Source: Haliotis asinina (lineage: Eukaryota > Mollusca > Gastropoda > Lepetellida > Haliotidae). From it: 64,000 nucleotides of DNA. Each line of letters begins with the position of its first letter. The first letter of the stretch is position 1. Under the pieces are notes generated by a model. It was not told where the DNA came from and ran no database searches. It saw nothing but the letters and a program-made list of their open reading frames with translations. The stretch spans positions 41,278,747 through 41,342,746 of the forward strand of contig NC_090292.1 of the NCBI RefSeq assembly GCF_037392515.1, in the 5' to 3' direction. The translations under genes and the position numbers were made by a program. This document shows positions 20,773-59,744 of this stretch, one piece after another.

Positions 20773-22028
20773 GACTTTTTTCTTACTGGTTGGGCTGGTC
20801 GGAAGGGAAAGTAATTTGGTTCAGGGAATGTCAGAAAGGCGACCGGGTGGGCTGATCGAACAAGTGGGCGTTTTATCAGTCTGCATGATTCTACACCATG
20901 CATTATGACGTGAGCCTATGTCTCCAAACCATTATTCTCGATTTTTGCATCGCAGTGGTGTGTGGTCCTGTGCATAGAGCTCAGGTCACAAATCAGGTGA
21001 GGTTAAACCACGGCGGTCGCAGAGAAATCTTGGATGGTTTACTTCCGACACCTGAGAGTTTCTCGGACATCAGTCTTGTACCATGTCGAAGCACATGCGA
21101 AGCATGTGGAATCACCTTAGGCAAGCGTGTTTGTTCACGGATTACCTCTGTTCACCCAGCAATGAATGGGTACCCGGTAGGATATTTGTGAGTAAGTAAT
21201 ATGACTGTCAACCTTCTTGCAGTTTGAGTTAACCGAGGCATTAATGTCTCAGCGTGTACGCAAGCACAAGTATGTGGAAACAAACACGTTAAAATGTCTT
21301 ATATTACCTATAATTATGCTGAATAAGTCTGCATGAACTCAAGTATCCAGTAATATAAAAGTCTGCATGTATCTAGTCTAGATGTATCTAGGTGCAAAAT
21401 GATTACTCACTGAAAGAATTAACATGGAAACATAAACACTGGACGCTCGATCAAGCAAACTCAAATACATCAGTCCCAAGCCGAAAGCCATTGGTTGCAT
21501 GAACGTCCCAGTTCAACCAATCAGCATTCCGTACTCAATGGTCACACCGCAGGATGTAATCACTTGTACACAGCAACCAGTCATTTCCGAATATTACAAG
21601 GATCCAGTTTGGTATTGCTCATCGTGGACTTACTAATGACTATTAATCAACATAGACGTTACCGTTTACCGGTGTTATTGTCTGTACTGCAATTCCGTCC
21701 GTTTCGTAAATAGTTAGCGTTTCCTGTAGTAATGTTGCTGTGATATTGGTGCCATGTTGCTAAAAGCGGGGTAAACCCAAACTAACCCACCCACTAGGAG
21801 ATGTTGTACTGCACGATATTACACGAATACAACTGCCAAAAGGTGTACCGCACCTGTGTTAATATTTAGCTAAGGGCTCTTTGACAAGGTTCATGAGAAA
21901 ATGATGGACCTCATATACACAATGTATACTCATTGAAACAAATAAGGGAACACATGAAAGTACAAGTGTTCCTTTAATTTTTTTTCCAGGTTTCTTAACA
22001 AGCTATTTATTAGTAAACGTTTCTGGGC
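20773..22028. other. Unassigned sequence
   Basis: A 97-codon plus frame at 20898-21191 has several cysteines but no recognised pattern. Nothing else seen. Confidence 0.55.
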
Positions 22029-23072
22029 TATAACTTTTTCTTTATTGTATGTCACAAGGTATCTTGGATATTATAATAACTTTTCTTTATTGTATGTCAC
22101 AACATTTCTGGGCTATCATAATAACTTTTCTTTATCGTATGTCACAACATTTCTGGGCTATCATAATAACTTTTCTTTATCGTATGTCAAAACATTTCTG
22201 GGCTATCATAATAACTTTTCTTTATCGTATGTCACAACATTTCTGGGCTATCATAATAACTTTTCTTTATCGTATGTCACAACATTTCTGGGCTATCATA
22301 ATAACTTTACTTTATTGTATGTCACAACAGTTCTTTATTGTATGTCACAACATTTCTGGGCTATCATAATAACTTTTTCTTTATTGTATGTCACAACATT
22401 TCTGGGCTATCATAATAACTTTTCTTTATTGTATGTCACAACAGTTCTTTATTATATGTCACAACATTTCTGGGCTATTATAATAACTTTTCTTTATTGT
22501 ATGTCACAACATTTCTGGGCTATTATAATAACTTTTCTTTATCGTATGTCACAACATTTCTGGGCTATCATAATAACTTTTCTTTATCGTATGTCACAAC
22601 ATTTCTGGGCTTTCATAATAACCTTTCTTTATCGTATGTCACAACATTTCTGGGCTATCATAATAACTTTTCTTTATTGTATGTCACAACATTTCTGGGC
22701 TTTCATAATAACTTTTCTTTATCGTATGTCACAACATTTCTGGGCTATCATAATAACTTTTCTTTATTGTATGTCACAACATTTCTGGGCTTTCATAATA
22801 ACTTTTCTTTATCGTATGTCACAACATTTCTGGGCTATCATAATAACTTTTCTTTATTGTATGTCACAACATTTCTGGGCTTTCATAATAACTTTTCTTT
22901 ATCGTATGTCACAACATTTCTGGGCTATTATAATAACTTTTTCTTTATTGTATGTCACAAGGTATCTTGGATATTATAATAACTTTTCTTTATTGTATGT
23001 CACAACATATCTGGGCTATTATACCAACTTTTCTTTATTGTATGTCACAACATTTCTGGGCTATTATAATAA
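22029..23072. repeat. Minisatellite, 45-bp unit
   Basis: About 23 copies with TATGTCACAACATTTCTGGG and CTATCATAATAACTTTTC. From about 22600 to 22920 units alternate CTATCA/CTTTCA, giving a 90-bp higher-order period. Multiples of 3 keep long plus-strand frames open. A 389-codon frame runs through the array and 140 bp beyond, but nothing marks it as a gene. Confidence 0.95.
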
Positions 23073-24144
23073 CTTTTTATGTATGAAAATTGTAGCCGTT
23101 TACAAACTGTTAAAGTCTGATGAGTATATGTGCGAACACTGGGGTAAGAAACCCAAATCTGATTTTGTCAAGTTTCTAAATAAAAGACATAAATATAAAA
23201 GTTTACCTTTATGAAATTTCAGTTTTTTTAATGCTCAGTACACATCTGAATCGCGGTATGAACTTGCCAACATTGCACCATCAGTGTTTTTCGTCACATG
23301 CCTGAAGGTAATATGACTACAAATCTATTATCCTGCGATCCTAACTTCACTTTAAGTGAATGTGATTGATCATAATTCAGACTGACACACGATATGCGTA
23401 CAAGGTGTGTAGTGTGTACTACAGAACACAAACTGTCTCCCAGAACTGAGGGAATGACGTAACGAATACTGGGCCACTGTCTGTTTTTTATACAATCCTA
23501 TAATTCTCATCGTACGAGCTCTCCGCAGTGGAAGACAATAAAAGTCTGTATACATGAGGGTAACAACAAACCAGAGATTTAAATGAGCGCATTCACAGCT
23601 TACTCGTGTATCAGAAATGAAATGGTCCGTGTGTTCGCTATACCCTGTGGTACTTACACGATAAGCAAACCTACATCGCTCTGTTCAGAGAAATCGACCA
23701 AGCACGGCTTCTCATATGTTAATAACCATTGACTGGTATGTTGTGGTGACCTACTTCAACGACTGGTGACCTACTTCAACTGTAAGTGACCCACTTTGGC
23801 TACCCTTGCCTTCAGTTGTTGATCATGCACTGTAACAGATGGCTTTACTGGACCAGAAACAACACACTTTAGTCAACCCTGTATTGCTTTAACTATTGTT
23901 GACGGACTTTTGCTATTGTAAACTACTCCAGCTTTCATTTTAGCAAATACTTGTTAAGCAATGAGTTGGTAATGAAGCTTAAGGCTATATGAATAACATG
24001 GAACTACGTTTTGCTTGTCGACTGCAAGGTATCTACACTCAATCACCAAACGTCATTAAAAAAGTTGTTATAAAGGGTATTATTGTCATTTTCACGACTG
24101 TTAATCAATTTATGAGACTGTTTTACTCATTTTAACATGAGGAC
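23073..24144. other. Unassigned sequence
   Basis: Holds the tail of the frame that leaves the 45-bp array (to 23214) and a short GACTGGTGACCTACTTCAAC duplication at 23740-23780. No gene. Confidence 0.55.
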
Positions 24145-36080: not shown

Positions 36081-39000
36081 CTGTAACAGGCAACAAATAT
36101 TAAAGGTTAGTTAAACAAAAATACCAAATGACTATCGTTCGTATGTGTCTACAATAGAATCAGTAACGAGCCCGGTTAACAGGCACTCGAGCGAGACTAT
36201 TATCATACGTTTCTGGTGCGTCTAAGGGACGCAACTCGTATGAAAACGTAACGAACTACGTAAGGTCCTAATGGTTAAAGCGTCTGCTCGTCACGCCGAA
36301 GACCAGGGTTCGAATCCCCACATGGGTGCAATGAGTGAAGCCCAATCCGATGTCCTCCGCCGTGATATTACTGGAATATTGCTAAAATGGCAATGCATAA
36401 CTTAACTCATTCACTCACTTATCGGGTAAGACGGGACTACAATCAGATGTCGACAAATCAGCGTTAGAAAACAAACATATGCATTCGTCTAGACATGTCG
36501 ACTGTTGACATAGAAACGTGTTGTCAACACGTATGAAAACATATAGGTCATGTGGAAATACATGAGATAATACAAACAATTTTCAAAGTCTATAGACACC
36601 TAAATCGTAAACATTACGAAGTACTGTGGATTGTCTTTCGAAGCGTGGACAATGTTCAGCGTTCTATTAACGCGTCAGTGGTTCATTGCGAACAGAAATT
36701 CAAAAACGACTGCATGACGCTATTGACCCACGACTAATGCGAAGCTCTTCAGACAAAACTATCCTACGGTCATGAGACATCTCTGACAGAAGCAATGTCT
36801 GTTTGAAATTCCGACTTCTGACAGCGGCTATAACACGTCATGCATGTACGCACAGGACAACAACGTAGGTCAAGGACAATGCGCATGCGCAAAAAGCCGT
36901 TAAGTTGCGTGAAGTTGAACATGATTAACCTGGCTCAACATTTACAAGGAAGTTTGGTCTTTCAGTTTGTTCATATGGCCTTCTGTAAAACCTTTTTAAA
37001 GCCAACTTTGCCTGCTGGAGCGTAATGTCTTTGTGCATGAGACAAACACGTGTACATTTATATAACTTGTGTGTTCGAAGTGGGTGATGCTGGTTGATAA
37101 AATTGTGTTTGGATTAAGTATTGTACAGTAAAAGAAATTCCAACTCGCTCGCCACTCACTCACTCAGTCACTCAATTACTGAACTCGTATCTTGAGCCCT
37201 TAATTGTCATTATATCTGATGTGAATCAACCGCCGCCCCGGCAAACGTGAGTGCCTGAGTTGAGTTTTACGTCGCTTTTGCCAATATTCCAGCAATGTCA
37301 CGAACCCAGGCGTGGGCTCCTCACGTTGTACACATGTGTGAAATCGAATCCAGATCTTCAGGGTTACGTGCGATCACTTTGTCCACCCCTTATCTAACGC
37401 ATCTGACATGATCAGATTAACAAAGTAGCATAGTAATGTCTCTTCGTTTACGTCAGGATGTTGTGAAGCCCATTTCTGGCGTCCCCCGCCTTGATTATTA
37501 ATATTAATATTGATAAGTTTAATATTGAGAGAACCCTTTGTATACAGAGAGCGGACCGTCTGTATGTAGAGAGCAGACCGTCTGTATGCAAAGAGCGGAC
37601 CGTTTGTATACAGAGAGTGGGCGTCACCTACGGCATTGACGACCAGGCCATACACTAATGTGGACTGGTTTGAATCAGCGAACCGTCAAACTCTGACAAG
37701 ACTGACAGTTGGAGACTCTGTGTACAGTTACACTTCATTTATCCGAAACCCTAAACTTTCTACTGTAAAGGTTTGGTAACATCACTGAGTGAGTGAGTGA
37801 GTTTAGTTTACGCTGTCTCAGCAATATTCCAGCGTTATTGCGGAGGGTTGTAAATATACGAGCCTGGACCACATAATCCCGTGATCAACAGCATGAGCAT
37901 TGATCTGCACAATTGGGATATGATGACAAACAAGACAGCGAACCTGACCACCAGATCAGGTTAGTCATCTTTTTGAACATCGATCTACGAAGCTGGGACA
38001 CATTACATAGGAAGTAGAACTCACCTGTGTTTTTGAGGATGACGTGAGGACGTAATGGCGAAGTATCTGGACAAGAGCAACCTTTATCAGAACGAGGCCG
38101 AACTTGAAGCCTACGCACATGCGCGGACCGTGTCCATAAGGAAGATAACTGTAGAGAGGTCGCTTTTCCTTGTTTTGTTTGCTGAATCTCTCTGGGATGA
38201 ATTTGTCCGGCTCGGGGTAAAGGGTCTCATCGGCATACATGCTAACAGCCATAACTCTGATTTTCATCCCTTTACGGAAAGGAATTCCATCGACTTCACA
38301 ATCTTCGGTGCAGGTGCGTGCAACGCTGTATACAAAAAGCATACTGTAAACATTTGTTTGTAGATGAGGTGAAATATTCACCATGTTCAAGAATATACGG
38401 CGTAAATCTCTAATTACTCATTCATTCCTTCATTCAAGTGAGTGAGTTTAGTTTTACGCCGCACTCAGCAATATTCCAGCTGTGTGGCGGCGGTTTGTAA
38501 ATAATCAAGTCTGGACCAGACATTCCAGTGATCAACAGCATGAGTATCGACCTGCGCCACTGGGAACCGATGACATGTGTCAACCAAGTCAGCGAGCCTG
38601 ACCATCCGATCCCGTTAGTCGACTCTTAAGACAAGAATAGTCGCCATGGGTTTCTGAAGACCAATTCTACCCCGGTCTCATTCGTTCAGGATAAAGTGAA
38701 ACGGGGTCCAGCGTCGTATTTAAGAATATGCGCCTACATTGGATGACGTGCATGCGTGTGTGCGTGTGACTCCTTGTACTAGACAAGACCAAAGAAGTCT
38801 TTCCATCGCCCCTGTACTCATATGGGGAATCGACCAAGGACATGGGTGTAATCAGAACATTTTCCACCCAGGACCAACGTTATAACTTCGTCATCAGTGA
38901 CGTGAGTTATACGAGGCGACTCAGGGGATCGGATGGTCAGACTCGATGACATGGTTGACATGCATCATCATATCGCAATAACGTAGAGCGATGCTCGTGA

Positions 39001-42000
39001 TGTCAGTCACTGGATTGTCATGTCCAGACTCGATTTACATACTGCTGTCACATAGCAGGAATATTGCTGGGTTTGACGTTAAACATACGAACTAGAACCC
39101 TTATCTAACAGTTTGAATACAACATCTCCCGTAAGCATATGTGCGTGTGCGTGTGCGTGTGCGTGTGCAATTAACATACCCAGGTATCACGGGGAATACT
39201 CGACTTGTTTCTTCGATAACCATGTCGAGATATTCCATCTGCGACAGCAAGTCGTAGTCAAAAGTCTGAAAACAACAATGGGTAAACGGAACATTCTCGC
39301 AAGCCAGGGGTATTTTCTGTTGAGGCTCTTTATCACATACAAGTCAGCCATGTTCACTTGTTCTGCTGAGAATCAATGATATCGCAAGGGTTAAAAAAAT
39401 CATCGCCCGGGACAAGTCAGTTTTCAATTCGGGCAATCAAATAATGGTAGTGGGCTACTAGGTAATTTCCGCGTACGGTTTCAAACTAAAAAAAACCAGT
39501 TACTTGGATTTCATCTCATATATTCTTAAACTGCAGCTATTAAAGTTCGCAACGATAATAAAGTAGAGTTATGTTTCTTGGCTATTTATCACTTTGCGCT
39601 TAATAGTCCAGTAATAATTAACATGAAATACCATGTTGATTTATTCTTTCATAAGTTCACCATTATGACTACGTCATAAAAATCAGGCTAGTTGAATATT
39701 GGTCCTTCAACAAGTGGCTTTTAAATACATTTTGAACAGTGGAAAACACAACCAAGAAATTACCCTACCTCATTTTGTGAGACTTTATTTATTTCATCTG
39801 TAAGCCTTTCCTGCACATCTGGGTTGGTTGCCAGAAGGTGAAGCGCAAACGACAGAACTGAACTTGTTGGGCCAAGACCTCCTCCAACCATGGTGGCTGC
39901 CTGACTTAGTAATTCGTCATCCGACAGATGGCGCTTGACGTCGTTATTGTCTTCGTCAGTGGAAACTGAGTAACCTTCTATGAGACGACGAAGGAGATGT
40001 TTTGACTGGTTCTCTGGGCACTGCGCCATCTGTCAACAGATGTTCCCCTTTAATAATACTGCGTCATGAACATTTCACCGAAAACAATTTCAGATTACAA
40101 CACCTGGCATTGATTAATCCTTATTTTTCTATTGATCGTAAAATCTAATTTAAAAAAGACCTATCAAAATGAATTCGTTGGAGATCTGTTTTACGAAAGT
40201 AAGTAGAAATTAGCAATTTGTTTCATATATAAATCTCTAAGTCAATAACATTTCAACAACATCGCGGCGTGGCACACCAGAAATGGGTCTCACACACTGT
40301 ACCCATGTCGTGACGAGCAAACGGTTTAACCACTTGGCTACGACCCCCCTCCCCTCTCGAAGATAAATTAACAGTACAAGTCATGTGACGCTGTCGAATT
40401 ATTCAGATTTATATTATTTAGTGAGACACAAACAAGGCAAACATTGTTATTATACATTATACATAGCATTCACTGTTTACCTTGACATAATTATGTTTCT
40501 TAAGTGATCATAACAAAATTCTAAGTTGAACGCTCTTTTCCTAAATGCGGAAATACAACGTAAAATTCCCCCAAAACCAGACCATAGAGCAAATGATACC
40601 TTTTGTTTTTCTTTCTCAATGAGCTTTTTCATATTCTTTAAATGCAGTGCGTGGAGTTGGCGATGTTCTGTGTCAAACAGCTGTAGGAACCATGTGAGTG
40701 ACGGGAACAACCCTGTAAGGAGAATGTACTGTTACATTAGCCCTACGTGAGCATAATATATGCACACAGGAGCGTTGAATCACATCACTCTCAGCAATAT
40801 TCCAGATTTAACTAGATGCTGTGTATGAGCTTAGGCAAAGCTGACAGGTCGTTGACACTACCGTCAACACAGGACGCCGGACGCCATCAAGGTACACAAA
40901 GAAACAAGTCTGACAGCCCGATCCACTTAGACAACGGGACCCGTGAAGATCGGGGTTAGAATTGATCTTCAGTAACCCATATTTGTTTGTCGAGGTGACT
41001 AACGGGATCGGGTGGTCAGGCTCGCCGCGTTGGTTGACGCGCCATCATATCCCGAGTACATAGGTCGATATCCATGATGTAACGACAAACGGAAATCTGG
41101 TGTCCTTGGCGTCTTCAGCACCGACACCTTCTGTGCAGAGTTGCGGCCCTTGAACATGCGTCAATGCTCACACTGATGACCACTACATTGTCTGGCGCAG
41201 ACTCGATTGTTTACAGCCCGTCTCCAAATAGATGGAGTATTTCTGAGTGCGGCTTAAAACAACAAACTATCACAAGGATGCAGTGGGGTAACCTAGCAGT
41301 AAAAGTGTTCTCTATACACGCCGACGACACCAGTTCGACTCTCCACATGGGTACATCATGAGAATTCTGGTGTCTCACTCTAAAACATTCCATCTTTCAA
41401 CATTGACACTGGGCAGCAGTTACGCTGGGTATCTTCATAGTTTAGGTGTCCTGACTCACGGAGATGCCCGGAGTTACCCGAAGTTACCAGAGTCTCCCCT
41501 AGATGACATTGTTGGTACAGTGCATGCTCATCAAGCGCATGACCGGGGTCGATTCCCACCAAACGCCCATTTCTGGACCAGACAATCCAGTGATTCATGA
41601 ACATCGATCTAAACCACCGGATCCCGTTAGTCGGTCTGTTACGACAACCCTGGGTTACCGAAGACAAATTGGTCACACTCGCCTAAATGGGTTCTGTCTC
41701 CTTTACGAACGGGTCTTTCAACATAATGAAGCTTGTACCAATATAGTTTAGTCGGGCACAAAGATACATGTAGTTTGATGTAGCAGTTTAGGTTTCCACA
41801 AACACATACGCGCAAAGCCAGCGAGTTGGTTCTCCGCTGCACCCGATCTGTTGAACGCCAACATGTATCTGTACAATATCTCCTGGGCGTTGTTGAGGCT
41901 GTCGCAGTCATAGTCAAATGCTGCGTTCGCGAAGGCGTCGAGGGTGTATCGCTCCGCCAGTCTGAAACAGAAGCAGTGGATTGGTAACGATGACGTTACT

Positions 42001-45000
42001 GAGTGAGTGAGTGAGTGAGTGAGTGAGTGAGTGATGTTTGAGCTTTTAGCAGAGTGACAAGTTCAACCTTATCCCCCATCAAATCATTTATATCGACTCC
42101 AGATCTACTCTTGAAATATATATCCCTGGACTGAGTTTACACAACGATTATTTTATGGTGTTCTATTGAGTCGGTTTGATCTACGTCCGAAGACCGACTA
42201 GTCAAGCCAAAACCATCTTTTTCTCTAAACTCCGTTTCAGCCAAATGTGTGAAGCCCATTTCTGGTGTCCCCTGCTGAGGTACTGCTGGAAAATTGCTAA
42301 AAGCGGCGTAAAGTAGTACATAATTTGAGAGTGATTGAATGGGTTTCGCATGTAAGGCTTCGACCCCGGTGCCACAGACGAACGATTTAAAAATTAGGCT
42401 ACACGTTTATGGAGGCGACAAACCAAGGACAGGATTTGAACAACAATTACGAAATACGAGGTTGGGGCAGTGATTGAGGTGACCATATACTCACCCAGCG
42501 ATGTCCACATTTTCCACACCATCTTCAACTGAAGCTTCAAGTCGTTGTAGTAGCTTACTTGATGTTCGAGTTACGCCAGAGACAATCTGTTATGAAATAA
42601 ATATGCCATATACAACAATCCACGGTTTAAACGAATTAAACCAAATATAAATTCGTTAATTCGCCAGTTCGTTACACCCGTGTTCTTTCTAAACGCAATC
42701 TGCTGCAGCAATTGACCACAGACACGCTTCTAAACGCAATCCGCTGCAGCAATTGACCACAGACACGCTTCTAAACACAATGTGCTGCAGCAATTGACCA
42801 CAGAAACGGTTCTAAATGCAATCTGCTGCAGCAATTGACAACAAGAACGGTTCTAAACGCAATCTGCTGCAGCAATTGACCACAAAAACGGTTCTAAACG
42901 CAATCTGCTGCAGCAACTGACCTCAATAACGGTTCTAACGCAGTCTGCTGTAGCAATTCATAGGTGATTTAGGCTACTTGTTTGGCTGTTTACGCCGCAC
43001 TATTTCAGCAATATGGCGTCGGGCTGTAAATAATCGAGTCTGGACCAGCCAAGCCAGTGATCAACAGCATTTGCATCGATCTACGCAAGAAGGATGCAAT
43101 GGCATATGTCACCCAAATCAGTGAACCTGACCTCCCGATCCTGTTAGTCGTCTCTTACGACAAGCTGAAGACCCATTCTAACCTGGATCTTATTCGGGCT
43201 GATAATTTAGGAATTTTCACTGTCAAAGCAGCAGATCTGTGCCTGAAAAGATCTTCAAAGAAGACCTTGGCAAGGAGGGCTTGGTCACTGGAGATGAGTC
43301 GGTTCTGTTGTGTACAGTTGCGTCCCTTTGACAAGTAAGAGTTACGTCCCTTTGAGGAGTGATAAATTAGGATCGGGAATTTGACATTCACATTTTTGCT
43401 GCCATGTTTGCAAGTTTGCCATGAAGTTGTAAAATCAAATATACCGACATGTCTATTCAAATATTATTGTTCAAACCCGCGTTAAACTAAACGGTCCCGC
43501 TAACACCTATTCAAAAAGGCGCGGCAATGACGACCTTGACCCCACGATAATCTGCTCACCTCTTTCAAACATTTGGAATGGAACGCCTTAGCAACCACCA
43601 TTCTCTGTCGTTTCCACAATTCGCCGTTAGCGTTCTGAATGCCCAGCTCATCAAGAGGGTTGAGGAACGGCGTGCACGCCTGTAAAGATATCAATAAAAT
43701 GTTTGAATTCTTAAGTGTACGACTTTACTTCATTATGCTTAAGTTATTGTTTGTAAATATCTCACTGCAAATCTGCTTAAATTCCCGACATTTGGATGCC
43801 TTTGCTGGACGCTGATCTATTTATAATTTGGCGATGATACTTCATTTGATGTATGTCAGTTTTTAGGCCTACAATTTTCGGTGTTAATCGGGTTGAATAC
43901 AGAGAATGTCATTTAATATTCTGGGTTGATGTTTGGTGGAGACAGACGAGAAAGACACAGTTTAGGGAAGGAACTCACTTTTGTTTCTCGACGTCCAAAT
44001 TTCAAATAATAAACGATCGGACTCTAAACATCTAGGAATAAAAGAATTATGTAATAATTTAAGCATGATTTTTTTTTACTCAAACGTATGGCAAGAGGAA
44101 TCACTGAACACAGCCATGTTTTATTTAAAAGACAATTTCCAGGTCGTACCGGTCGATCGCTGAAACAAGCGAACCTCTTGACCAGGATCTGCTGGGTCAG
44201 CCGCGGGTCAGAGATGACCATACTTGGGTGGAGGCCCTCGTAGAAGCTGTCGTAAAACAAGATGGACAACATTACAGTCCCGGCTGCAACAACTTCGTCA
44301 ATACACGTAGATGAATAATTTATTGTGAGTGAGTTTAGGTTTACGCCCCACTCAGCAACATTCCAGTTAGATGGTGGCAGTCTGTAAATAATCGAGTCAG
44401 GGACAGACAATCCAGTGATTAACAACATGACGATTGTGAGTGATAAAATATTGTTTTAAGCCGCATCCTAGAATAACCCTTGGGGGAATTCTATGAATTG
44501 AAGAAATAATTAGATATGTTCCCGTCAGCCCTTCAAACAGTCGAGTCTGGACTATCAAACACCAGTGATTGATAGTATGAACAACGACCATGAAGGTTAG
44601 GGGAGACGGCCATCAACTTGGCCATCATCTGATCCATTTAGCATTTTATATGTGTGTTCCAAGATGTCACAAGGGACGAATAAAATAAAGCAATATAAAA
44701 ATGTATGATCCGATAGCGTTGGTCAAACTTAAAAGCTTCTTGATGAAGAAAATAGTACGGTACCCACTGAAGCAAAATATATCTTACCCAAAAACCTTTC
44801 CATATGTTTTACTCCAGTCTTTAAACACATCAAGTGCAAACTGAAAAACAAAGGTGGACGCTGAAGTCAAGTACATGTGTACTGTAGTTTTAAAAACTGA
44901 TGATGATGGTGAGGGTGGGGGTTAGTGGGTGGTGACGTGATAGTCCAGTGATCATCGCCTGGGTCCGAGTATATATATGAAACAAAGCTGAAGCTTTAAA

Positions 45001-48000
45001 ACATAATCTACGGCTGTAGACAGTTTCCTAAATGCTGCGATTTAAAAAGTTAAAATTTGAATTAAAAATAAATAAGAATATAAACAGAGCTTCTTCCGAC
45101 GTTAATGTTTGGCTCACAATCCGTCCCGTGTCTAGATCAAGTTATATTTAGCCGTTGAAACCCGGTGACGCGGAAATAGTCTGTGTGCTATATTTGCATT
45201 AAGCTTGACATCACAAGCATTGTGATCCGAGTTAAATATTGTAGTCTGCACTGTCAACTACATCCAGCAAACCGAAGACGGTCAAAGACAGGCATCCGCG
45301 TGATGTTGGGGTATTGGGAGCTGTGCCACAGGGGAGACACTGAAGGGGTGGAAGAGGGGGTGGGGGAGGGTGTACACGTAAATATGAAATACCTAGGATA
45401 TGTGCAACCAAAATCCCATCTGGTACTCTTATATCGACCACGTCCCATCAATCTCGCCCAACGTCACTACACCCAATCTCACCGTATGCCCTTGTAATCC
45501 TCTTCACCTCTAAACGCCTTCCACCCCCACCCCTAACCCTCACCCCCACCCCCACCATCACTTCACCCAAACCCACACCAACACGATCTCGTTAGTCGCC
45601 TCTTACGACAGGCATAGTCGCCTTTTATGGCAAGCATGGGTTGCTGAAGGCCTATTCTACCCCGGGACCTTCATGGGAAGATATCATATCGACTTTCTGA
45701 CAAAAATACACGACTTCTAAATGAAAATTGTCAAATTTCAAAACCATACCCGCGCTTGATAACCATCACTGACGGCATGCCCACCTTTAAGACAATCGGG
45801 GCTGCAGGGTAGCCTTATGGTTAAGGCGTTCGCTCGTCACACTTAAGACCCAGATTCGATTCCTCACATGGGTACGATGTGTGATGCATGTTCCCGCCGG
45901 GATATTATTGCTAAGGCGGCGAAAATCTAAACTAAACCAACGCCCTCATTAAATCACTTTAAGCCAATCCACATTGAAATTTGCTTTGTTTATTATTTTC
46001 GTAACACTAACATTGTTGAACTCGCCATTTTTTCTAGCAGTTTAACAGGTTTATTTTCTTCATAACGAAGTGTGATGATTTGCTTGTATCAACTCTTGAC
46101 ACGTGTTTATATCGTGAACATCACCTACAGCATTAGTGACCAAGTTAAGTGTGGGCGCAAGTTAATTTTACACTCAACAATAGTCCAGCTACATGGTGGC
46201 GGTCTGTAAATAATCGTGTCTGAGCATCGATCTACGCAATTGGGTTATGATGACCTGTGTCAACTAAGTCAGCGAGAATGATCAAGTTAGTCGCCTCTTA
46301 CCAGACAATCTGGTGATCGACAGCATGAGCACCACTCAATTGGAATTCTAAGCACGATCTTCACGTGACTGGCAGTCTAACAAATTTCTTTTCTTTTTAT
46401 AACGAAGCATAATTATTTCCTTGTTTGTACCAATTCCTGAAACGTGTCTGTTTCGTGAATATCGCCTACACTGGCCCAGTTAAGTGCCTGACCCGGCAAT
46501 CCTGTTCACCCTTAGAGCGTGTTACGCTTACCTTGGACTTAAACTCGGCCACGTTGCCGAATAGAAGAATCGGCTTTGGCCCTGGGATCCCGAGTTTTTC
46601 AAAGACAGAATGGCACTGCTTCAAGTACCTGAAAATATACGCAAACCGGTAATATATTGTCACAACATTAGAGTGAGTGAGGTTTTACGCCGCGTTTAGC
46701 AATATTTCCAGCAATATCACTGTGCGGGACACCAGAAATTGACTTCACACATTGTACCCATGTGTGGAATCGAACCCGGGTCTTAGACGCGACGAGGGGA
46801 CTCATTCTCCACTAGGTTACCCCAGAGCCGCTATAATTTGAAGTGAGACTTATGCACATCATAGTAAGGCGCTATTACACGCTTAGATTTTACGTTCTCA
46901 TTGTAATTTACGACAATGCAAAATGAGTAAGCGGAATATATTTACATGACGGCGGTCTGTAAATAGGTCTGGACCAGACAATCCTGTGACCACCCGATCT
47001 TACGACGAGCATGGTTCATGAAGATCTAACACGGATCTTCACGTGTCCGGTGAGACAGAGATAGCAAGACAGAGCAAACGAAGGAGAATGGAGAGAGGGG
47101 GAAGGAGAGAGAGGGGAGGTGGCGGTAGAGAGAGAGGGGGGTAGGGATAGAGAGAGGGGAGGTAGGGGTAGAGAGTGAGGGAGGTAGGGGTAGAGAGAGG
47201 GGAGGTAGTGGTAGAGAGGGGAGGTAGTGGTGGAGAGGGGAGGTAGTGGTGGAGAGAGGGTAGGTGGCGGTAGAGAGAGAGGGGGGTAGGTATAGAGAGA
47301 GGGGAGGTAGGGGTAGAGAGTGAGGGAGGTAGGGGTAGAGAGAGGGGAGGTAGTGGTAGAGAGGGGAGGTAGTGGTAGAGAGGGGAGGTAGGGGTAGAGA
47401 GAGGGGAGGTAGCGGTAGAGAGAGGTAGGTAGGGGTAGAGAGAGGGGAGGTAGGGGTAGAGAGAGGGAGGTAGGGATAGAGAGGGGAGGTAGGGGTAGAG
47501 AGAGGGGAGGTAGCGGTAGAGGGAGGGAGGTAGGGATAGGGAGAGGGGAGGTAGCGGTAGAGAGAGGGAGGTAGGGGTAGAGAGAGGGGAGGTAGCGGTA
47601 GAGAGATAGAGGAGGTAGTGTTAGAGAGAGGGGGATGTGGGGGTAGAGAGAGGGGAGGTAGGGGTGGAGAGAGGGGTAGCTGTAGAGAGAGAGAAGGGGG
47701 TAGCGGTAGAGAGAAGTAGAGGTAGAGTCGAGATAAGGAAGTGGAGGTAGAGAAAGAGGTAGAGGTAAAGAGAGAGTTGGCAAGACAGGGAAGTGGGGGT
47801 GGGAGGGAGTGAGAAGAGAGAGGAGAGATATAAGAAGAGGATATGCGTGGGAGGAGTCACTTAAATGCCACATGGCAACAAATACGTACTTTATCGTCTT
47901 GGAAACTAGAAAACTGCATTAAACGAAAGACACCGCTGAATCACTAGCTCAACGATTCTATATAAAATGCACATTTTCAGCTTTGAAATTCTCGTCAAAC

Positions 48001-50061
48001 GGTGGTCACATAACACCGCGACGTTTTTAAGTCTCGTTAAAGCCGATGTGTTTTTCCTTTTTTACATTTAAGATGAGAATTTAATTATTACCGATACAAG
48101 AACTCGACAAACGTCTTATTTTTGGCATTATGCCTTCGCACTCAATGTATCCTTCAGAAAAACACATGCATACAAGGGGAAAGGTTTCAACGACTCTCTG
48201 AAAGCACCAAAAGCAGAAGAACGCCGCCTCCGCAATTCCATTCTGCGTACAGGATACAGACGTGTAGCTAGAACGTTAAGTTAGTGAGTTTAGTTTTACG
48301 CCGCACTGAGCAATATTCCCGCGATATGGCAGCGGTATGTAAATAATCGAGTCTGGACCAGACAATCCAGTGATCAATATCATGAGCATCGATCCACGCA
48401 GTTGGGAACCGATGACATGTGTCAACGAAGTCCCCCGATCACCCTGAACACCTGATCCCGATAGCCGCATCTTAGGACAAGCATGAGTTAGCAAAGATCA
48501 GTTCTTACCCGGGATCTTCACGGATATGTAAAACGTTACACAAAGCATTTGGAAAATTAATTGTATTTAATTACCGTTGCTGATGACAGCGTAAAGTGAC
48601 TGGTTATGACTTTACAACGCCATAAGTCAGTTTACCCATGTGGGGAGCGAACCCAGTTTTTGCGGGATTAGCATATCACCCTGTTATCCAGCCCTCAGAT
48701 TTAAAAGTATGTGTTTACAGATTACGGCCTAATCCTTCGAAATTTGAACAGTCAGCAGTGCAGATCCGTCGAATCATGCTCGAGTGGTTCTGTGCTCATC
48801 GGTCGAATTTCAGACAGCGTTAACACACTGGAAGAGTCATATGTTAAGGGAATGGCTTGTATTGGATTATTAGATACCGCGCTACTGATTTGGTTTTTTT
48901 CCTCCTTTTTTCTGTTTGTGTATCTGTTTATTTAAAAGAAGCACTAAGCAAGATTGTGCGATGAGGTTCTGTACATATTCTGCCCGAACCAGACAATCCA
49001 GTGATTGATGTCATGAACAACAGTCTGTATAGCTGGGATACGATGAGATGCATCAAGCATTTGCCTTTGGCAATGAACGTGAATGGTGTTCAGTGCCTTA
49101 GTGATCAGAATTGTCTAGAGATCTATTTTTAACCATCTAGTTATCTCGAACTGGAGTGGGGTAGCCTAGTGGTTAAAGCAGCCGCTCGTCACGCTTCAAA
49201 CACGGGTTCGATTCCCAAACACGGGAACTATGTGTGAAGCTCATTTCTGGTGTCCCCTGCTGTGATTATACTGTAATGCTGCTAAACGCGGCGTAAAACC
49301 ATACTCACCCACCACTCATCTAATTGCTGCATATTGATCAAGTGCTAGTTGTCTAGTGCTAAACTGACATACCGTCTATCGAACTCATGGACGAGGGGCC
49401 TACTGACAACACGGGCTATTGATCTAAAGATCGTTTCCCCCTAGTCAAAACACGCTCACTGCTGGCTTCGATGTCGAGGCTGCGAGTGCGGAGGGCGACC
49501 TTCGTGGACTGAGACGGAGGGTTAGATGGGGAGGGTTCAGAGACGGTCGTGAGCCGCCGTCAGATTGACATAGCTCCATAAGTCAAACATCGCGCACTTC
49601 CCTTCAAATGTCGGTCACTGGGTCGAACCAAGAAGTAGGTCTGGTTAGTTTCACTAGACGACCTTGGGTGTGGACGCCGTATTAGTATTTTTTTATTGTT
49701 ACTTTTTCTATCACCAGTTGCAGTATAGTAGTAGCTGTAGCAGTAGTAACCGTAGTCATTCTATTAATTGCTGTTAGTATATTGTTGTCGTTGTTGTATA
49801 TAGTAGTAGGAGTAGTATAGTAGTAGCAGTAGTGGTAGCAGTAGTAGTGGTAGTAGTAGCAGTAGCAGTTGTAGTAGTAGTAGTAGCAGCAGCAGTAGTA
49901 GTAGTAGCTTAGCAACAGCAGCAACTGTAGTAGTAGCTTAGCGAAGCAGCAGCAGTAGTAGTAGAAGCAATGGTAGTTGTGGCAGTAGCAATAACAGTAT
50001 AGTTGTAAAAGTAGCAGCAGTAGTGGTAGTAGCTTAGCAGCAGCAGCTGTAGTAGTAGTAG

Positions 50062-50114
<53 letters not shown>

Positions 50115-51976
50115 GTACTAGTACTACTACTAGTACTACTACTACTAGTACTACTACTACTAGTACTACTACTACTACTAGTACTACTACTACTACTACT
50201 AGTACTACTACTACTACTAGTAGTAGTAGTAGTAGTAGTGCGTCTACGAACTTTAAATTGAACTTGTAAACACTACAGTAAGTTCAACACAGTACACCTT
50301 GACCATACTGTGTTGATTAAATGAAACTTTTTTCACAAAACGAACAATTACGGGAATCTGTAGTAAGCTTTGGGTGGTGTTATAGAGGGATAAGTGGGTG
50401 ATGCTGGCTAATTTGCTGTCCGAAGCTCGATTTCAACCTGTGTCAGGTATATCCATTATAGAAACACGAGTGGAAACCCAGCACTGGACACTGTATCTCT
50501 TTATAGCATATATAACACAGAATTACATAGTGTAGGTTGGTCATAAACCATGCTACTTATAAACTGCGGGACAAAGATAGTATACAGTTTTAAACACCAG
50601 TGTTCGATGGTCCCTGGGAACATTTAAAAGGAAAGACACGGCGGTGTATTTTAATAGGTACCATCGATATGTTTTAAAATTAATTTTGGTTGGTTGGTTA
50701 AAAGCAACACTCGAGGTTGTAGGTCATGTGATATCTGATATCTGTATATTTTTCATTCGAAGCAATGTAATTTCAGCCTTGGAATATTTCCAAAACCTTT
50801 GTTATTACCTTGGCTAAAGTTTATTCTTTCATTCGTCCTAAATGTAGAATGCTGCGAGCACGAGTAAGTCCGATTAACCACGTTTTATTAACTAGCTGGT
50901 ATTTTTTTTTTAAATGCAGTGAATTGCGTCTGTTACAAATACGCTTATAACGAACAGCCGGATGTAACGAACAGTGTTGTTGGTCTTTGCCACCTGTTTT
51001 ATGCTTCAGTCGAGTGAGTGTGGTTTTACGCCGCTTTTAGCAACATCCCACCAATATCACGGCGTAGGACACCTGAAATGGCCTTCACACACTGTTCCCA
51101 TGCAGGGAAGCGAACCCGGTCTTCGGCGTGACGGGCGAACGCTTTAACCACTAGGATACCCCACCGCCACTGTTTCCGTAGCATTTATTAAAATTTACAA
51201 CCAATAAGATTTAAACCCGACTAAAGAACATAGTTATTATGCATATAACAGGGCTAAATGAATTTTTACAGATTAAAAAATTTTCAATAAAGCTGAAATG
51301 AGTTATATGCAAATTATATGTGACATTGTTTTCTAGAATACGATCAATAAAAATATAACAGCGCAATATTTGTGAGATGTATGAGAATTATTGTAATGTT
51401 CCACGCATGTATAAAAGGATTAACAAAAGCATGCATTTGTTATGGAATATTACGTGTTTCCCAACAAACACACGTTTGTGTTACGACTGTCATCCGTCAA
51501 GTGTGCACATATAAGTCTTATATATGTACACTTGACGGGGTGAAAGACGTAATCTTTCGGCAAGTGACATATAAATACATATAAACTTTTTAAATATTAT
51601 AACAATAATCAATTACTAAGAAAGTTTCAACAGTTTGTTATCAGAAACAATTGGAGTAAAAATATGAACCAAAATTTACCTGAGATTTACTACTTTCATA
51701 ATTTGACAAATTATTTCAAGTGAAATATATTTCATGAATTTTATGTACTTTCGTTTTCATACACATACCTATTTCATAAGCGTTTAGAAATAATTTGTAT
51801 TCTCAACATGTGTAACGCTACGGCCAGTGACAATGTATTTTCTGAAAAATGCAACAGAAACATCAGCTATGTAAGACAACTTTGAAAAGACGACAAAAAA
51901 AAAAGAAAAGGAAAACGTCTTGAACTCACCGATAGAGAACAAGCAGCAGGCAGCCGAGCAGAACGAGAGTTATCAT
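36000..51976 (-). CDS. Cytochrome P450, CYP3 clan (CYP3A / thromboxane-synthase-like), 12 coding exons
   Basis: This is a heme-thiolate enzyme anchored in the ER membrane. Exons in order: 51930-51976, 46532-46628, 44788-44840, 44150-44246, 43560-43679, 42495-42586, 41810-41961, 40600-40712, 39769-40029, 39180-39265, 38025-38325, 36000-36080. They total 1500 nt, giving 499 residues, close to the ~500 usual for CYP3A. All introns are GT-AG and all phases agree. Visible parts are a hydrophobic N-terminal anchor (residues 1-16), PGPKP hinge (31-35), C-helix WKRQR (Trp120, Arg124), K-helix ETSR (Glu363, Arg366), FIPERF (415-420) and the heme loop YGHGPRMCVG with ligand Cys443. The I-helix reads GGLGPTSS where CYP3A has AGYETTSS, so the acid and catalytic threonine are Gly310 and Pro311. 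The ATG chosen is the first in its frame after the upstream region and opens directly into the anchor. No AATAAA is seen within ~350 bp after the stop. The substrate is unknown. A CYP5-like isomerase is an alternative to a monooxygenase. Confidence 0.95.
36263..36419 (+). mobile_element. SINE-B in P450 intron 11
   Basis: CTAATGGTTAAAGCGTCTGC, TCGTCACGCCGAAGACC, AGGGTTCGAATCCCCAC, CCGCCGTGATATTACTGG and CATTCACTCAC. It lies about 180 bp from the last exon. Confidence 0.85.
37247..37388 (-). mobile_element. SINE-B, diverged, in P450 intron 11
   Basis: GTTGAGTTTTACGTCGC, CAATATTCCAGCAATGTC and GTGTGAAATCGAATCC. The A-box end is degraded. A second partial copy in the opposite direction lies at about 37450-37497. 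Confidence 0.7.
37786..37972 (-). mobile_element. SINE-A (5'-truncated) in P450 intron 11
   Basis: GAGTGAGTGAGTGAGTTTAG, then CTCAGCAATATTCCAGC, TGATCAACAGCATGAGC and GCGAACCTGACCACC. It stops 52 bp short of the exon 11 donor. Confidence 0.8.
38025..38325 (-). CDS. P450 exon 11: PERF and heme-binding cysteine
   Basis: Completes Gly373 and encodes residues 374-473. Contains EPDKFIPERFSKQNK and the heme loop PYGHGPRMCVGFKFG with Cys443. The usual leading Phe of FxxGxRxCxG is Tyr. Acceptor TATACAG|C, donor CAG|GTGAGT. The open frame upstream of the acceptor and past the donor is intronic. Confidence 0.97.
38438..38690 (-). mobile_element. SINE-A in P450 intron 10
   Basis: Near full length: GTGAGTGAGTTTAGTTTTAC at its left end, then TCTGGACCAGACATTCCAG and GATCCCGTTAGTCGACTC. 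It lies 113 bp beyond the exon 11 acceptor side of intron 10. Confidence 0.85.
38908..39090 (+). mobile_element. SINE-A fragment in P450 intron 10
   Basis: GAGGCGACTCAGGGGATCGG, ATGGTTGACATGCATCATC, TCACTGGATTGTCATGTCC and AGGAATATTGCTGGG, ending in a degraded tail 89 bp from the exon 10 donor. Confidence 0.75.
39140..39168. repeat. (GTGTGC)n repeat beside the exon 10 donor
   Basis: GTGCGTGTGCGTGTGCGTGT type run. On the transcribed (minus) sense it is a GCACAC repeat beginning 12 bp into intron 10. Confidence 0.9.
39180..39265 (-). CDS. P450 exon 10: K-helix ExxR
   Basis: Encodes residues 345-372 plus two bases of Gly373. TFDYDLLSQMEYLDMVI is followed by EETSR (Glu363, Arg366), then VFPVIP. 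CYP3A has MEYLDMVVNETLR here, so the match is close, with Leu replaced by Ser inside ExxR. Acceptor TTTTCAG, donor GG|GTATGT. A GCACAC-type repeat lies 12-40 bp past the donor. Confidence 0.93.
39769..40029 (-). CDS. P450 exon 9: I-helix with altered oxygen-activation motif
   Basis: Eighty-seven codons, residues 258-344, phase 0 at both ends (acceptor TTGACAG, donor GAG|GTAGGG). Contains LSDDELLSQ and the I-helix. After MVGGG it reads LGPTSSVLSF, aligning without gaps to the CYP3A segment YETTSSVLSF. The acid position is GGC (39871-39873) and the threonine position is CCA (39868-39870), each one base from a canonical codon. It continues LATNPDVQERLTDEI, the conserved J-helix. Confidence 0.95.
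40255..40351 (-). mobile_element. SINE-B fragment in P450 intron 8
   Basis: CACCAGAAATGGGTCTCACAC, TACCCATGTCGTGACGAGC and AACCACTTGGCTACG. The B-box is deleted and the tail is absent. Confidence 0.65.
40600..40712 (-). CDS. P450 exon 8: F-G region
   Basis: Completes Arg220 and encodes residues 221-257, starting LFPSLTWFLQLF (compare VFPFL in CYP3A) and ending in a lysine-rich G-helix segment. Acceptor CCTTACAG, donor AAAAG|GTATCA, phase 0. An open frame continues past the donor but is intronic. Confidence 0.9.
40929..41265 (+). mobile_element. SINE-A interrupted by an insertion, P450 intron 7
   Basis: Head at 40929-41090 (GACCCGTGAAGATCGGG, CTAACGGGATCGGGTGG) and tail part at 41160-41265 (ACATTGTCTGGCGCAGACTC, GATTGTTTACAGCCC). 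About 70 bp of foreign sequence separates them. Confidence 0.7.
41568..41690 (-). mobile_element. SINE-A fragment in P450 intron 7
   Basis: CTGGACCAGACAATCCAGTG, GAACATCGATCTAAACC and GGATCCCGTTAGTCGG are visible. Both ends are degraded. Confidence 0.6.
41810..41961 (-). CDS. P450 exon 7: E-F helices
   Basis: Completes Gly169 and encodes residues 170-219 plus one base of Arg220. RYTLDAFANAAF and DSLNN match the CYP3A E-helix (YSMDVITSTSFG...DSLNN). Acceptor CTGTTTCAG|A, donor GCGC|GTATGT. Confidence 0.92.
42000..42033. repeat. (GAGT)n microsatellite in P450 intron 6
   Basis: About 8 GAGT copies, 39 bp upstream of the exon 7 acceptor on the minus strand. Confidence 0.9.
42243..42403. mobile_element. 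Two opposed SINE-B fragments in P450 intron 6
   Basis: 42243-42315 is a plus-strand body (TGTGTGAAGCCCATTTCTGG, TGCTAAAAGCGGCGTAAAG). 42338-42403 is a minus-strand piece (ATGGGTTTCGCATG, CTTCGACCCCGG, TTAGGCTACAC). Confidence 0.55.
42495..42586 (-). CDS. P450 exon 6: D-helix region
   Basis: Encodes residues 139-168 plus two bases of Gly169, ending VENVDIAG, the segment before the E-helix. Acceptor CATAACAG, donor GG|GTGAGT. No stop interrupts the exon and its phases fit both neighbours. Confidence 0.9.
42685..42958. repeat. Minisatellite, 41-bp unit, in P450 intron 5
   Basis: Six to seven copies with TTCTAAACGCAATCTGCTGC and AGCAATTGACCAC. Confidence 0.93.
42974..43195 (-). mobile_element. 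SINE-A in P450 intron 5
   Basis: TTTACGCCGCACTATTTCAGC, then TAATCGAGTCTGGACCAGC, GTGATCAACAGCATTTGC and CTGTTAGTCGTCTCTTACG. The GTGAGT tail is lost. Confidence 0.8.
43560..43679 (-). CDS. P450 exon 5: C-helix WxxxR
   Basis: Forty codons, residues 99-138. Contains GELWKRQRMVVAKAFHSKCL. The Trp120/Arg124 pair is the C-helix motif that contacts a heme propionate. Phase 0 at both ends, acceptor TTTACAG, donor GAG|GTGAGC. Confidence 0.93.
44150..44246 (-). CDS. P450 exon 4: beta-1 sheet and B-helix region
   Basis: Encodes residues 67-98. FYEGLHPSMVISDP matches the CYP3A FYDGxxPVLxITDP pattern, and the exon ends at FSDRP as in vertebrate CYP3A (FTNRRP). Acceptor ACGACAG|C, donor CCG|GTACGA, phase 0. 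Confidence 0.92.
44324..44600 (-). mobile_element. SINE-A fragment plus degraded second copy in P450 intron 3
   Basis: 44324-44428 is clear (GTGAGTGAGTTTAGG, TAATCGAGTCAGGGACAGAC, AGTGATTAACAACATGA). 44430-44600 repeats the pattern in degraded form (GTGAGTGATAAAATATTG, CGAGTCTGGACTATC, AGTGATTGATAGTATGAAC). Confidence 0.65.
44788..44840 (-). CDS. P450 exon 3: short exon with YGKVFG
   Basis: A 53-bp exon encoding residues 49-65 plus two bases of Gly66. It ends in KTYGKVFG, matching the A-helix/beta-1 start of CYP3 enzymes (KYGKVWG). Acceptor TTTTTCAG, donor GG|GTAAGA. It is too short for an ORF scan. It was found by phase and by homology to the family pattern. Confidence 0.9.
45582..45680 (-). 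mobile_element. SINE-A head fragment in P450 intron 2
   Basis: Only the head remains: TCGTTAGTCGCCTCTTACG, CATAGTCGCCTTTTATGG, GCATGGGTTGCTGAAGG and CCCGGGACCTTCATGGG. Very close to consensus, without the tail module. Confidence 0.75.
45800..45937 (+). mobile_element. SINE-B in P450 intron 2
   Basis: GGTAGCCTTATGGTTAAGGC, GTTCGCTCGTCACACTTAAG, CAGATTCGATTCCTCAC, then a shortened body and lost tail. Confidence 0.8.
46030..46490. repeat. Diverged ~120-bp direct duplication in P450 intron 2
   Basis: 46030-46155 and 46369-46490 share order and spacing: ATAACGAAG, ATTTCCTTGTTTGTACC-like, ACGTGTTTATATCGTGAA / ACGTGTCTGTTTCGTGAA, CACCTACA / CGCCTACA and CAAGTTAAGTG / CAGTTAAGTG. A SINE-A fragment lies between them. 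The second copy ends 42 bp from the exon 2 donor. Confidence 0.65.
46155..46335 (-). mobile_element. SINE-A fragment in P450 intron 2
   Basis: TGGTGGCGGTCTGTAAATAA, GAGCATCGATCTACGCAATT, GTCAACTAAGTCAGCGAG and GTTAGTCGCCTCTTAC are recognisable, with internal shuffling of the dimer-like segments. Confidence 0.7.
46532..46628 (-). CDS. P450 exon 2: proline-rich hinge
   Basis: Completes Arg16 and encodes residues 17-48, including KLGIPGPKP, the hinge that orients the catalytic domain after the anchor. The wording is very CYP3A-like (LGIPGP). Acceptor TTTTCAG|G, donor AAG|GTAAGC, ending in phase 0. Confidence 0.93.
46671..46828 (-). mobile_element. SINE-B in P450 intron 1
   Basis: GAGTGAGTGAGGTTTTACGC, TTCCAGCAATATCAC, GAATCGAACCCGGGTC and CTCCACTAGGTTACCCC. 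It begins 43 bp upstream of the exon 2 acceptor. Confidence 0.88.
46940..47050 (-). mobile_element. SINE-A fragment in P450 intron 1
   Basis: GGCGGTCTGTAAATAGG, CTGGACCAGACAATCCTGTG and a degraded ATCTTCACGTGTCCGG end. It abuts the purine-rich array that follows. Confidence 0.6.
47060..47790. repeat. Purine-rich ~20-bp minisatellite in P450 intron 1
   Basis: GGTAGGGGTAGAGAGAGGGG-type units with GGTAGCGGTAG variants, almost pure A/G on the plus strand for 700 bp. The pre-mRNA would carry a long polypyrimidine stretch. A 285-codon minus frame is an artefact. Confidence 0.93.
48277..48530 (-). mobile_element. SINE-A in P450 intron 1
   Basis: Near full length, opening AGTGAGTTTAGTTTTACGCC, with GTCTGGACCAGACAATCCAG and AACCGATGACATGTGTCAAC, ending in ACCCGGGATCTTCACGG. 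Confidence 0.85.
49152..49312 (+). mobile_element. SINE-B in P450 intron 1
   Basis: GGTAGCCTAGTGGTTAAAGC A-box, CGGGTTCGATTCCCAAAC B-box, CATTTCTGGTGTCCCCTGC body and CGGCGTAAAACC tail. Confidence 0.88.
49682..50240. repeat. Trinucleotide array (AGT)n / (ACT)n / (AGT)n in P450 intron 1
   Basis: Interrupted GTAGTAGCAG sequence to 50066, a sharp switch to ACTACTACT (50067-50215, with ACTAGT interruptions), then back to AGTAGTAGT (50216-50240). The switch points make self-complementary arms. Confidence 0.93.
51012..51174 (-). mobile_element. SINE-B in P450 intron 1
   Basis: GAGTGAGTGTGGTTTTACGC, TTTTAGCAACATCCC, AAGCGAACCCGGTCTTCGGC and AACCACTAGGATACCCC. Slightly decayed B-box. Confidence 0.85.
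51494..51538. repeat. Near-perfect hairpin in P450 intron 1
   Basis: CCGTCAAGTGTGCACATATAA at 51494-51514 mirrors TTATATATGTACACTTGACGG at 51518-51538, with 2-3 mismatches and almost no loop. It lies ~390 bp into intron 1. Confidence 0.8.
51930..51976 (-). CDS. P450 exon 1: start codon and membrane anchor
   Basis: Begins at the ATG and encodes residues 1-15 (MITLVLLGCLLLVLY) plus two bases of Arg16. This is a short hydrophobic signal anchor typical of microsomal P450s. The donor is CG|GTGAGT (phase 2). The frame upstream stays open through the putative 5' UTR but contains no earlier ATG back to about 52080. Confidence 0.9.
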
Positions 51977-58870: not shown

Positions 58871-59744
58871 TGTAACTACTGAACAGCAACAGAAAACCAA
58901 ATGTCGAAAAAATGACATCTCACAAAAGTAAGCGTCCAGGTTAATCTTCTACTTAAAAACCTGACAACAAAAACAGAGTTGCGTTTCTTTTGCTGTCATT
59001 ATATGACCATGTTTCCGATGGCACAATAACGGCGTTTCAGTTGTTAGCAGTCGGTACGGGTTCGAATCTGGTTCAGTCTGCGATGTACTGCTCCATCAAC
59101 CAAGTCAACGATGGAAAAAGTCTGCCAACACACAATGAAACTTAAACCACTAAAGTACATCCGAATTTCACAACACACCTTGAACTTTCTTCTTTGTGAC
59201 CTTTGACCTCAACATAAGCATAAATCACCTTTGTGTTTACATACTCTAGATAGTGATCGACATGAGTAGCTACCTCAGTCAGCCGGCCGAGGAGGGTAGC
59301 TGAGCTTAAAGTACATGAGGTAATTACGCTTAAAGTACATGAGGTATGTAAGTGGCTTACAGAACTCTCCATCGATGAAGGAATAAGAATATAATCTGTA
59401 ACTCATGTCCTTTATAATGGAGAAGCTGACGTCCACTTTACCCTTTGAAAGATTAACAATATATCCCGAAGTTCATGTTGACATCCGTATTATCTGCTCC
59501 TTTACAGTACATGCTTGTAAAATTAATGCAAAAACTTTGCCAAGCTTTCAGTGTGAGCTTTTGTTACTATGTGAATGACATATTTTAAAGATGCTTCATC
59601 ACTGAGCTACTGCCCCGGGTGTTTATAGAACGGGTGACGAACAGGGAAGTGCATACCTCTGAAGGGCGTGTGTTTACATAAGTCGCCCGCTGAACAACGT
59701 CAACGAAAGTTCGTGCTCGCAATACTCACGCGGAGAGTTTACGG
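58871..59744. other. Unassigned sequence
   Basis: Contains a 26-bp-spaced duplication of GCTTAAAGTACATGAGGTA (59305-59346). No gene recognised. Confidence 0.55.

Follow-up and report, generated by a model that had tools for sequence, protein, structure and literature searches.

In canonical P450s the I-helix already bulges at the proton-relay site, with the hydroxyl of the conserved threonine bonded to a backbone carbonyl, and their I-helix motif, [AG]Gx[DE]T[TS], contains the acid-threonine pair of classical O2 activation. The bacterial CYP152 peroxygenases (P450 BS-beta, SP-alpha and OleT) carry Arg-Pro at the place of this pair and lack the phenylalanine of the heme loop, as described in the available part of PMC5818669. 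Of 23 candidate bacterial stretches, 14 were confirmed by us as CYP152 relatives; all 14 loci, which are 35 to 94% identical to CYP152A1, have Arg-Pro at the pair, and none has phenylalanine seven residues before the cysteine. The same proline has been introduced artificially into P450 BM3, where T268P, also together with A264G, yields an active peroxygenase that uses H2O2 with a helper molecule; the guaiacol turnover of F87A/T268P was 321 versus 539 for the F87A parent (excerpts of PMC9143554), and the V78I/F87A/T268P variant has been crystallised (7ydd; PMC11900375, in part).

The CYP8 and CYP74 enzymes are named in the accessible text of PMC11900375 as being without the heme-loop phenylalanine and as working without O2 activation. 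Two relatives of prostacyclin synthase, CYP8B1 (...QGNTGPTSFW...) and CYP7A1 (...QANTIPATFW...), have glycine and alanine, respectively, at the place of the acid and asparagine at that of the threonine, the register being set by the distance to the NP/HP motif; they are named 12-alpha-hydroxylase and cholesterol 7-alpha-monooxygenase. Thromboxane synthase CYP5A1, presumably a CYP3-clan enzyme and taken here to read AGYEII at the I-helix, itself changed chemistry.

A CYP3A-like P450 gene of twelve exons

One P450 gene was found in the window, the whole 64-kb stretch of DNA that was analysed. Rebuilt from the DNA, this gene runs from 51976 to 36000 on the minus strand and comprises 12 exons, with 1500 nt of coding sequence including the stop and 499 residues. 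Its features are:

51930..51976, minus strand: exon 1, with the ATG and the start of the hydrophobic N-terminus
46532..46628, minus strand: exon 2, containing KLGIPGPKP
44788..44840, minus strand: exon 3
44150..44246, minus strand: exon 4
43560..43679, minus strand: exon 5, with the C-helix WKRQR (W120-R124) at 43602-43616
42495..42586, minus strand: exon 6
41810..41961, minus strand: exon 7
40600..40712, minus strand: exon 8
39769..40029, minus strand: exon 9, the I-helix exon (261 bp, phase 0), with the boundaries ...GACAG/ATGGC... and ...ATGAG/GTAGGG
39859..39885, minus strand: I-helix core GGGLGPTSS (residues 306-314), with Gly310 (GGC) at 39871-39873 and Pro311 (CCA) at 39868-39870
39180..39265, minus strand: exon 10, with ExxR (E363-R366) at 39200-39211
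38025..38325, minus strand: exon 11, with R376 at 38316-38318 and PERF (417-420) at 38184-38195
38109..38138, minus strand: heme loop YGHGPRMCVG (436-445) in exon 11, with Cys443 at 38115-38117
38136..38138, minus strand: Tyr436 at the place of the heme-loop phenylalanine, seven residues before the cysteine ligand (BM3 Phe393; role of the phenylalanine after the available parts of PMC5818669 and PMC11900375)
36000..36080, minus strand: exon 12, with the stop TGA

All 11 introns are GT-AG, the exon phases agree throughout and no internal stop is present. In the unspliced DNA the next in-frame stop upstream of the ATG at 51976 is 50 codons off, with no in-frame ATG in between. The N-terminus of the protein is hydrophobic, which suggests membrane anchoring; KLGIPGPKP follows, and the protein ends in TQIPLKTALRPFLTPHGPVHIGLVKRNT. 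It matched the Pfam profile p450 (PF00067) with 298.4 bits over positions 2-457 of 462, i.e. over nearly the full length, and W120, R124, R376, ExxR, PERF and Cys443, which form the core motifs and heme contacts of P450s, were all found to be kept. A first-pass annotation of this DNA had described a 499-residue protein with Cys443, ExxR, PERF, WxxxR and intact splice sites, and the rebuilt gene agrees with it in each of these respects.

Comparison with the PDB supported the affinity to the CYP3 clan that had also been proposed. Among the best 60 of 360 matches, the 14 best were all CYP3A4, CYP3A5 or CYP3A7 (E values of 4e-82 to 1e-75), followed by the next family at 2e-34, and no chain among these 60 was named CYP152 or CYP74; CYP8A1 and CYP8B1 did not figure among the named CYP3A-like matches. 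On this comparison the protein belongs to the CYP3 clan, CYP3A being its nearest relatives with a solved structure. Over 485 aligned positions it shares 34% of its residues with CYP3A4, which places it outside the CYP3 family proper, for which identity above 40% is the usual threshold. It is like CYP3A in length, in the heme motifs and in the I-helix stretch TSSVLSF, and unlike it in having GGGLGP for FAGYET, tyrosine for the heme-loop phenylalanine and YADETLY for HRDPKYW. Judged from its sequence, the gene is a protein-coding heme-thiolate P450 near CYP3A from which the proton-relay pair of the I-helix is missing.

A tblastn match at 59085-59351 (E 0.004) was considered as a second P450 and rejected, CYP3A4 matching nothing there and all three minus-strand frames containing stops. 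Relatives of the protein were confirmed in neither the viral nor the prokaryotic contig collections, as one would expect of an animal gene with many introns. Seven of the 32 other open reading frames of at least 120 aa, picked by eye, had no Pfam match at E<0.01 and were not accepted as genes; further frames of at least 120 aa sit in tandem arrays.

Several repeats were observed in the window. A 20-bp minisatellite of about 246 copies spans 2650-7580 (GC skew -0.63 over 4001-8000). An array of 69 copies of 24 bp (17773-19428) is open on both strands, and its frames of 565 aa (minus) and 392 aa (plus) are repeat-driven and no evidence of genes. Similarly, 23 copies of 45 bp (22030-23077) lie inside a 418-aa open frame of the plus strand (21958-23214) that is probably repeat-driven, and 6.7 copies of 41 bp (42687-42958) lie within the fifth P450 intron (42587-43559). 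The dispersed repeat TTTACGCCGCnnTnAGCAATATTCC (TTTACGCCGC..AGCAATATTCC), presumably the one known from abalone (Haliotis), was present across the whole window in 18 copies with at most three mismatches, versus 0 expected, for example at 38453-38477 and 48295-48319; nine of the 18 are inside P450 introns. It looks like a short interspersed element.

The I-helix and the heme loop

When FAGYETTSS of CYP3A4 is aligned with GGGLGPTSS, Phe304-Ala305-Gly306-Tyr307-Glu308-Thr309-Thr310 of CYP3A4 (in what we take to be its residue numbers) correspond to Gly306-Gly307-Gly308-Leu309-Gly310-Pro311-Thr312, so that Glu308 is replaced by Gly310 and Thr309 by Pro311. The register is secure because the stretch from LSD to NPDV/HPDV is ungapped against CYP3A4 and TSSVLSF on the 3' side is identical; both relay residues are therefore absent, in accordance with the earlier comparison of LGPTSSVLSF with YETTSSVLSF, and GGLGPT stands where the canonical motif would be. 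To that observation we add Gly306 and Gly307, glycines in place of two further side chains that lie over the heme in CYP3A4 (Phe304 and Ala305), and Tyr436. A mutually exclusive I-helix exon carrying the canonical pair had no candidate in the window: with the exon-9 peptide as query, the best tblastn match other than exon 9 itself had an E value of 1.1, and with the CYP3A4 I-helix piece the corresponding match had one of 0.85.

The frequency of such departures among animal P450s was taken from the available motif tables for Capitella (PMC4229089) and cnidarians (PMC8110760), which have 114 rows, or 108 for the I-helix after six gapped or missing rows were dropped. The acid was absent in 12 of these 108 motifs and threonine or serine at the second place in five; both were absent in a single one, Capitella CYP39B1 (ASLANA), and proline at the threonine place in none. 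The heme-loop phenylalanine was present in all 111 loops tabulated there (three of the 114 rows dropped). Unusual motifs may in truth be more frequent, since the Capitella authors tabulated a subset, 29 of 84 full-length genes (PMC4229089), and cnidarian genes missing a motif were called fragments by their authors (PMC8110760). In their available text both papers count the I-helix among the more variable P450 motifs, and two cnidarian CYP20A1 rows are without it (PMC8110760). No described animal P450 with the conserved threonine replaced by proline was found in the open-licence literature.

With the CYP152 enzymes the present protein shares the replacement of both acid and threonine, the proline at the threonine place and the loss of the heme-loop phenylalanine. 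The arginine by which CYP152 enzymes hold the fatty-acid carboxylate corresponds to Gly310, so that only the proline of Arg-Pro is found, and the heme loop has the usual FxxGxRxC spacing, unlike that of CYP152. The BM3 T268P variants (with F87A, V78I or A264G) match it in the proline and, with A264G, in the glycine at the Ala264 place (Pro311 and Gly307), and are unlike it in being man-made, retaining Glu267 and Phe393 and requiring the helper molecule. As the BM3 Thr268Pro structure indicates that proline alone does not wreck the fold, and as such variants are active with H2O2 and the helper, the earlier suggestion that the proline would kink the I-helix over the heme carries little weight.

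The CYP74 allene oxide synthases likewise lack the pair and the heme-loop phenylalanine and have glycine in the I-helix (FNTWGG), and differ in their heme loop, TVGNKQC, and in being a plant family. CYP8A1 and CYP8B1 also lack the pair, have glycine at the acid place and carry an aromatic residue other than phenylalanine (tryptophan) seven residues before the cysteine; unlike the present protein they have asparagine at the threonine place, and CYP8A1 is an isomerase, CYP8B1 a monooxygenase. Their own Gly-Pro is not the site of Gly310-Pro311: by the distance to NP/HP it lies three residues further on. The I-helix motif thus cannot decide the chemistry, because an isomerase and a hydroxylase that belong to one small group share these absences.

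Possible chemistry of the enzyme and constraint on its sequence

Our tentative preference is for a P450 that is fed already reduced oxygen, in the form of peroxide, instead of carrying out classical O2 activation. Such an enzyme would most likely form no compound I from O2 through the classical second protonation; instead, H2O2 or a lipid peroxide (hydroperoxide or endoperoxide) would bind the ferric heme directly and then be split or rearranged. The stretch Gly306-Gly307-Gly308-Leu-Gly310-Pro311 could give space over the heme for this, and the substrate or water could supply the acid-base help. Frame, splice sites, core motifs and heme contacts are intact while both relay residues are lost, a combination that would fit peroxide use. 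Proline at the threonine place has a peroxide-using precedent, since CYP152 peroxygenases carry Arg-Pro there, and the peroxide use of BM3 T268P/A264G and the absence of the heme-loop phenylalanine from CYP152, CYP8 and CYP74 point by analogy in the same direction. A more specific version, in which an animal, probably gastropod, CYP3A-like lineage independently turned into a peroxide-fed peroxygenase or endoperoxide/hydroperoxide isomerase by means of Gly-Pro, converging on the CYP152 proline and on BM3 A264G/T268P, is in our estimate unlikely.

Several observations speak against peroxide use. The monooxygenases CYP8B1 and CYP7A1 are also without the pair, and CYP8B1 in addition without the heme-loop phenylalanine; tyrosine is a mild substitute for that phenylalanine; BM3 T268P needs its helper and turns over less guaiacol (PMC9143554, in part); and the CYP152 arginine is replaced by Gly310. 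The first-pass annotation had taken the loss of the pair to suggest an isomerase, a lyase or a peroxide-using P450. Of this, the peroxide part has gained precedents in CYP152 and BM3 T268P; the loss of the pair by itself is no pointer to an isomerase, given the monooxygenases CYP8B1 and CYP7A1, and an isomerase is on this evidence possible.

These same enzymes underlie the second reading, a reductase-driven O2 monooxygenase whose proton is delivered by water or by a substrate hydroxyl, on the model of other P450s that lack the pair, which we regard as rather doubtful. CYP8B1 (GNTGPTSFW) and CYP7A1 (ANTIPATFW) are named hydroxylase and monooxygenase without acid and threonine; their asparagine, however, could still hold a water, and we know of no natural monooxygenase with proline at the threonine place. 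The absence of the acid or of threonine/serine in the 12 and five of 108 tabulated animal motifs (PMC4229089, PMC8110760) is compatible with such a route, and so is the mild nature of a change from phenylalanine to tyrosine, BM3 F393Y having a turnover near that of the wild type in the portion of PMC9820634 available. On the other hand, BM3 T268A and T268N turn over more slowly and with poorer coupling (PMC11900375, available text). The C-helix of the present protein has a net charge of +5, compared with +4 in CYP3A4, +4 in CYP152A1 and -2 in CYP5A1 as taken here. A basic C-helix is part of the reductase docking site, and its retention would fit a reductase-driven enzyme and speak against peroxide use. 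As proof of reductase use the charge was rejected, and we give it little weight because the peroxygenase CYP152A1 is basic there too.

Relaxed constraint, in a recent pseudogene whose frame is still unbroken or in a P450-like protein that catalyses little or nothing, we regard as about equally doubtful. As a stand-in for constraint we used a single alignment of four P450s (the present protein, CYP3A4, CYP5A1 and BM3), with verified BM3 letters and a provisional CYP5A1 sequence, and counted for each protein the columns in which the other three agree. Counted in this way, 28 of 75 deeply shared positions were changed in the present protein, versus 18 of 65 in CYP5A1, seven of 54 in CYP3A4 and 43 of 90 in BM3, with 47 kept in each (47/75, or 63%, 47/65, 47/54 and 47/90, respectively). 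The changes include A307G, E310G, L365S, H403Y, W409Y and F436Y. Ser365 takes the place of the ExLR leucine in exon 10 (39180-39265), and YADETLY, in place of CYP3A4 HRDPKYW in exon 11 (38025-38325), accounts for further deeply shared places lost. The size of this loss, and the acquisition of several glycines and one proline together in one helix, would favour relaxation, although the count of 28 in 75 comes from this one alignment of four sequences, in which the CYP5A1 sequence is provisional. Against it stand the 499 codons and 22 splice sites, all intact, and the heme-contact residues, all those checked being kept. Much of the branch was probably under constraint, because 63% of the deeply shared positions are kept at an overall identity to CYP3A4 of 34%. 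The loss, proportionally larger than in CYP5A1 and smaller than in BM3, would fit a changed function, a recent relaxation after long constraint or an early branch. Hence the earlier judgement that this is 'not simple decay' stands as far as frame and splice sites go, whereas decay by missense changes, with 28 of 75 deeply shared positions changed, is still compatible with the data.

A special link to CYP5A1 was not seen. CYP5A1, again in its provisional sequence, is 27% identical to the present protein and 35.5% to CYP3A4. In the four-sequence tree CYP3A4 and CYP5A1 group together with the present protein outside, at an ultrafast bootstrap of 82%, which is below the usual bar, and the raw site patterns (present protein with CYP3A4 8, with CYP5A1 6, CYP3A4 with CYP5A1 6) are nearly even. 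That the present protein is orthologous to thromboxane synthase is accordingly unlikely, subject to that bootstrap and those patterns; no described thromboxane synthase of molluscs was found in the open-licence literature. CYP5A1, in that sequence, resembles the present protein in its CYP3-clan membership, in the lost threonine and in an equally long branch (0.97 for both), and is unlike it in keeping the glutamate, in its acidic C-helix and in an insert missing from the present protein.

A sequencing, assembly or allele artefact at codons 310-311 is very improbable: GGC CCA is known from one assembly, but reaching it from GAC ACA (Asp-Thr) would take two separate substitutions, and from GAG/GAA ACA (Glu-Thr) three, none of them changing the frame, and the surrounding frame and splice sites are clean.

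Meaning for P450 function

Three readings are live on the sequence as it stands, namely peroxide use, O2 activation by another route and a function that is being lost. If the protein proves to be relaxed or a plain monooxygenase, it would warn against inferring chemistry from the I-helix motif alone, as the comparison of CYP8B1 with CYP8A1 already does. Should it turn out to be conserved and active, it would represent a naturally occurring animal P450 whose relay site holds proline, a residue that this analysis encountered there solely in peroxygenases of bacteria and in engineered BM3, and would provide both a natural test of the need for the pair in O2 activation and a lead to an oxylipin-forming mollusc enzyme.
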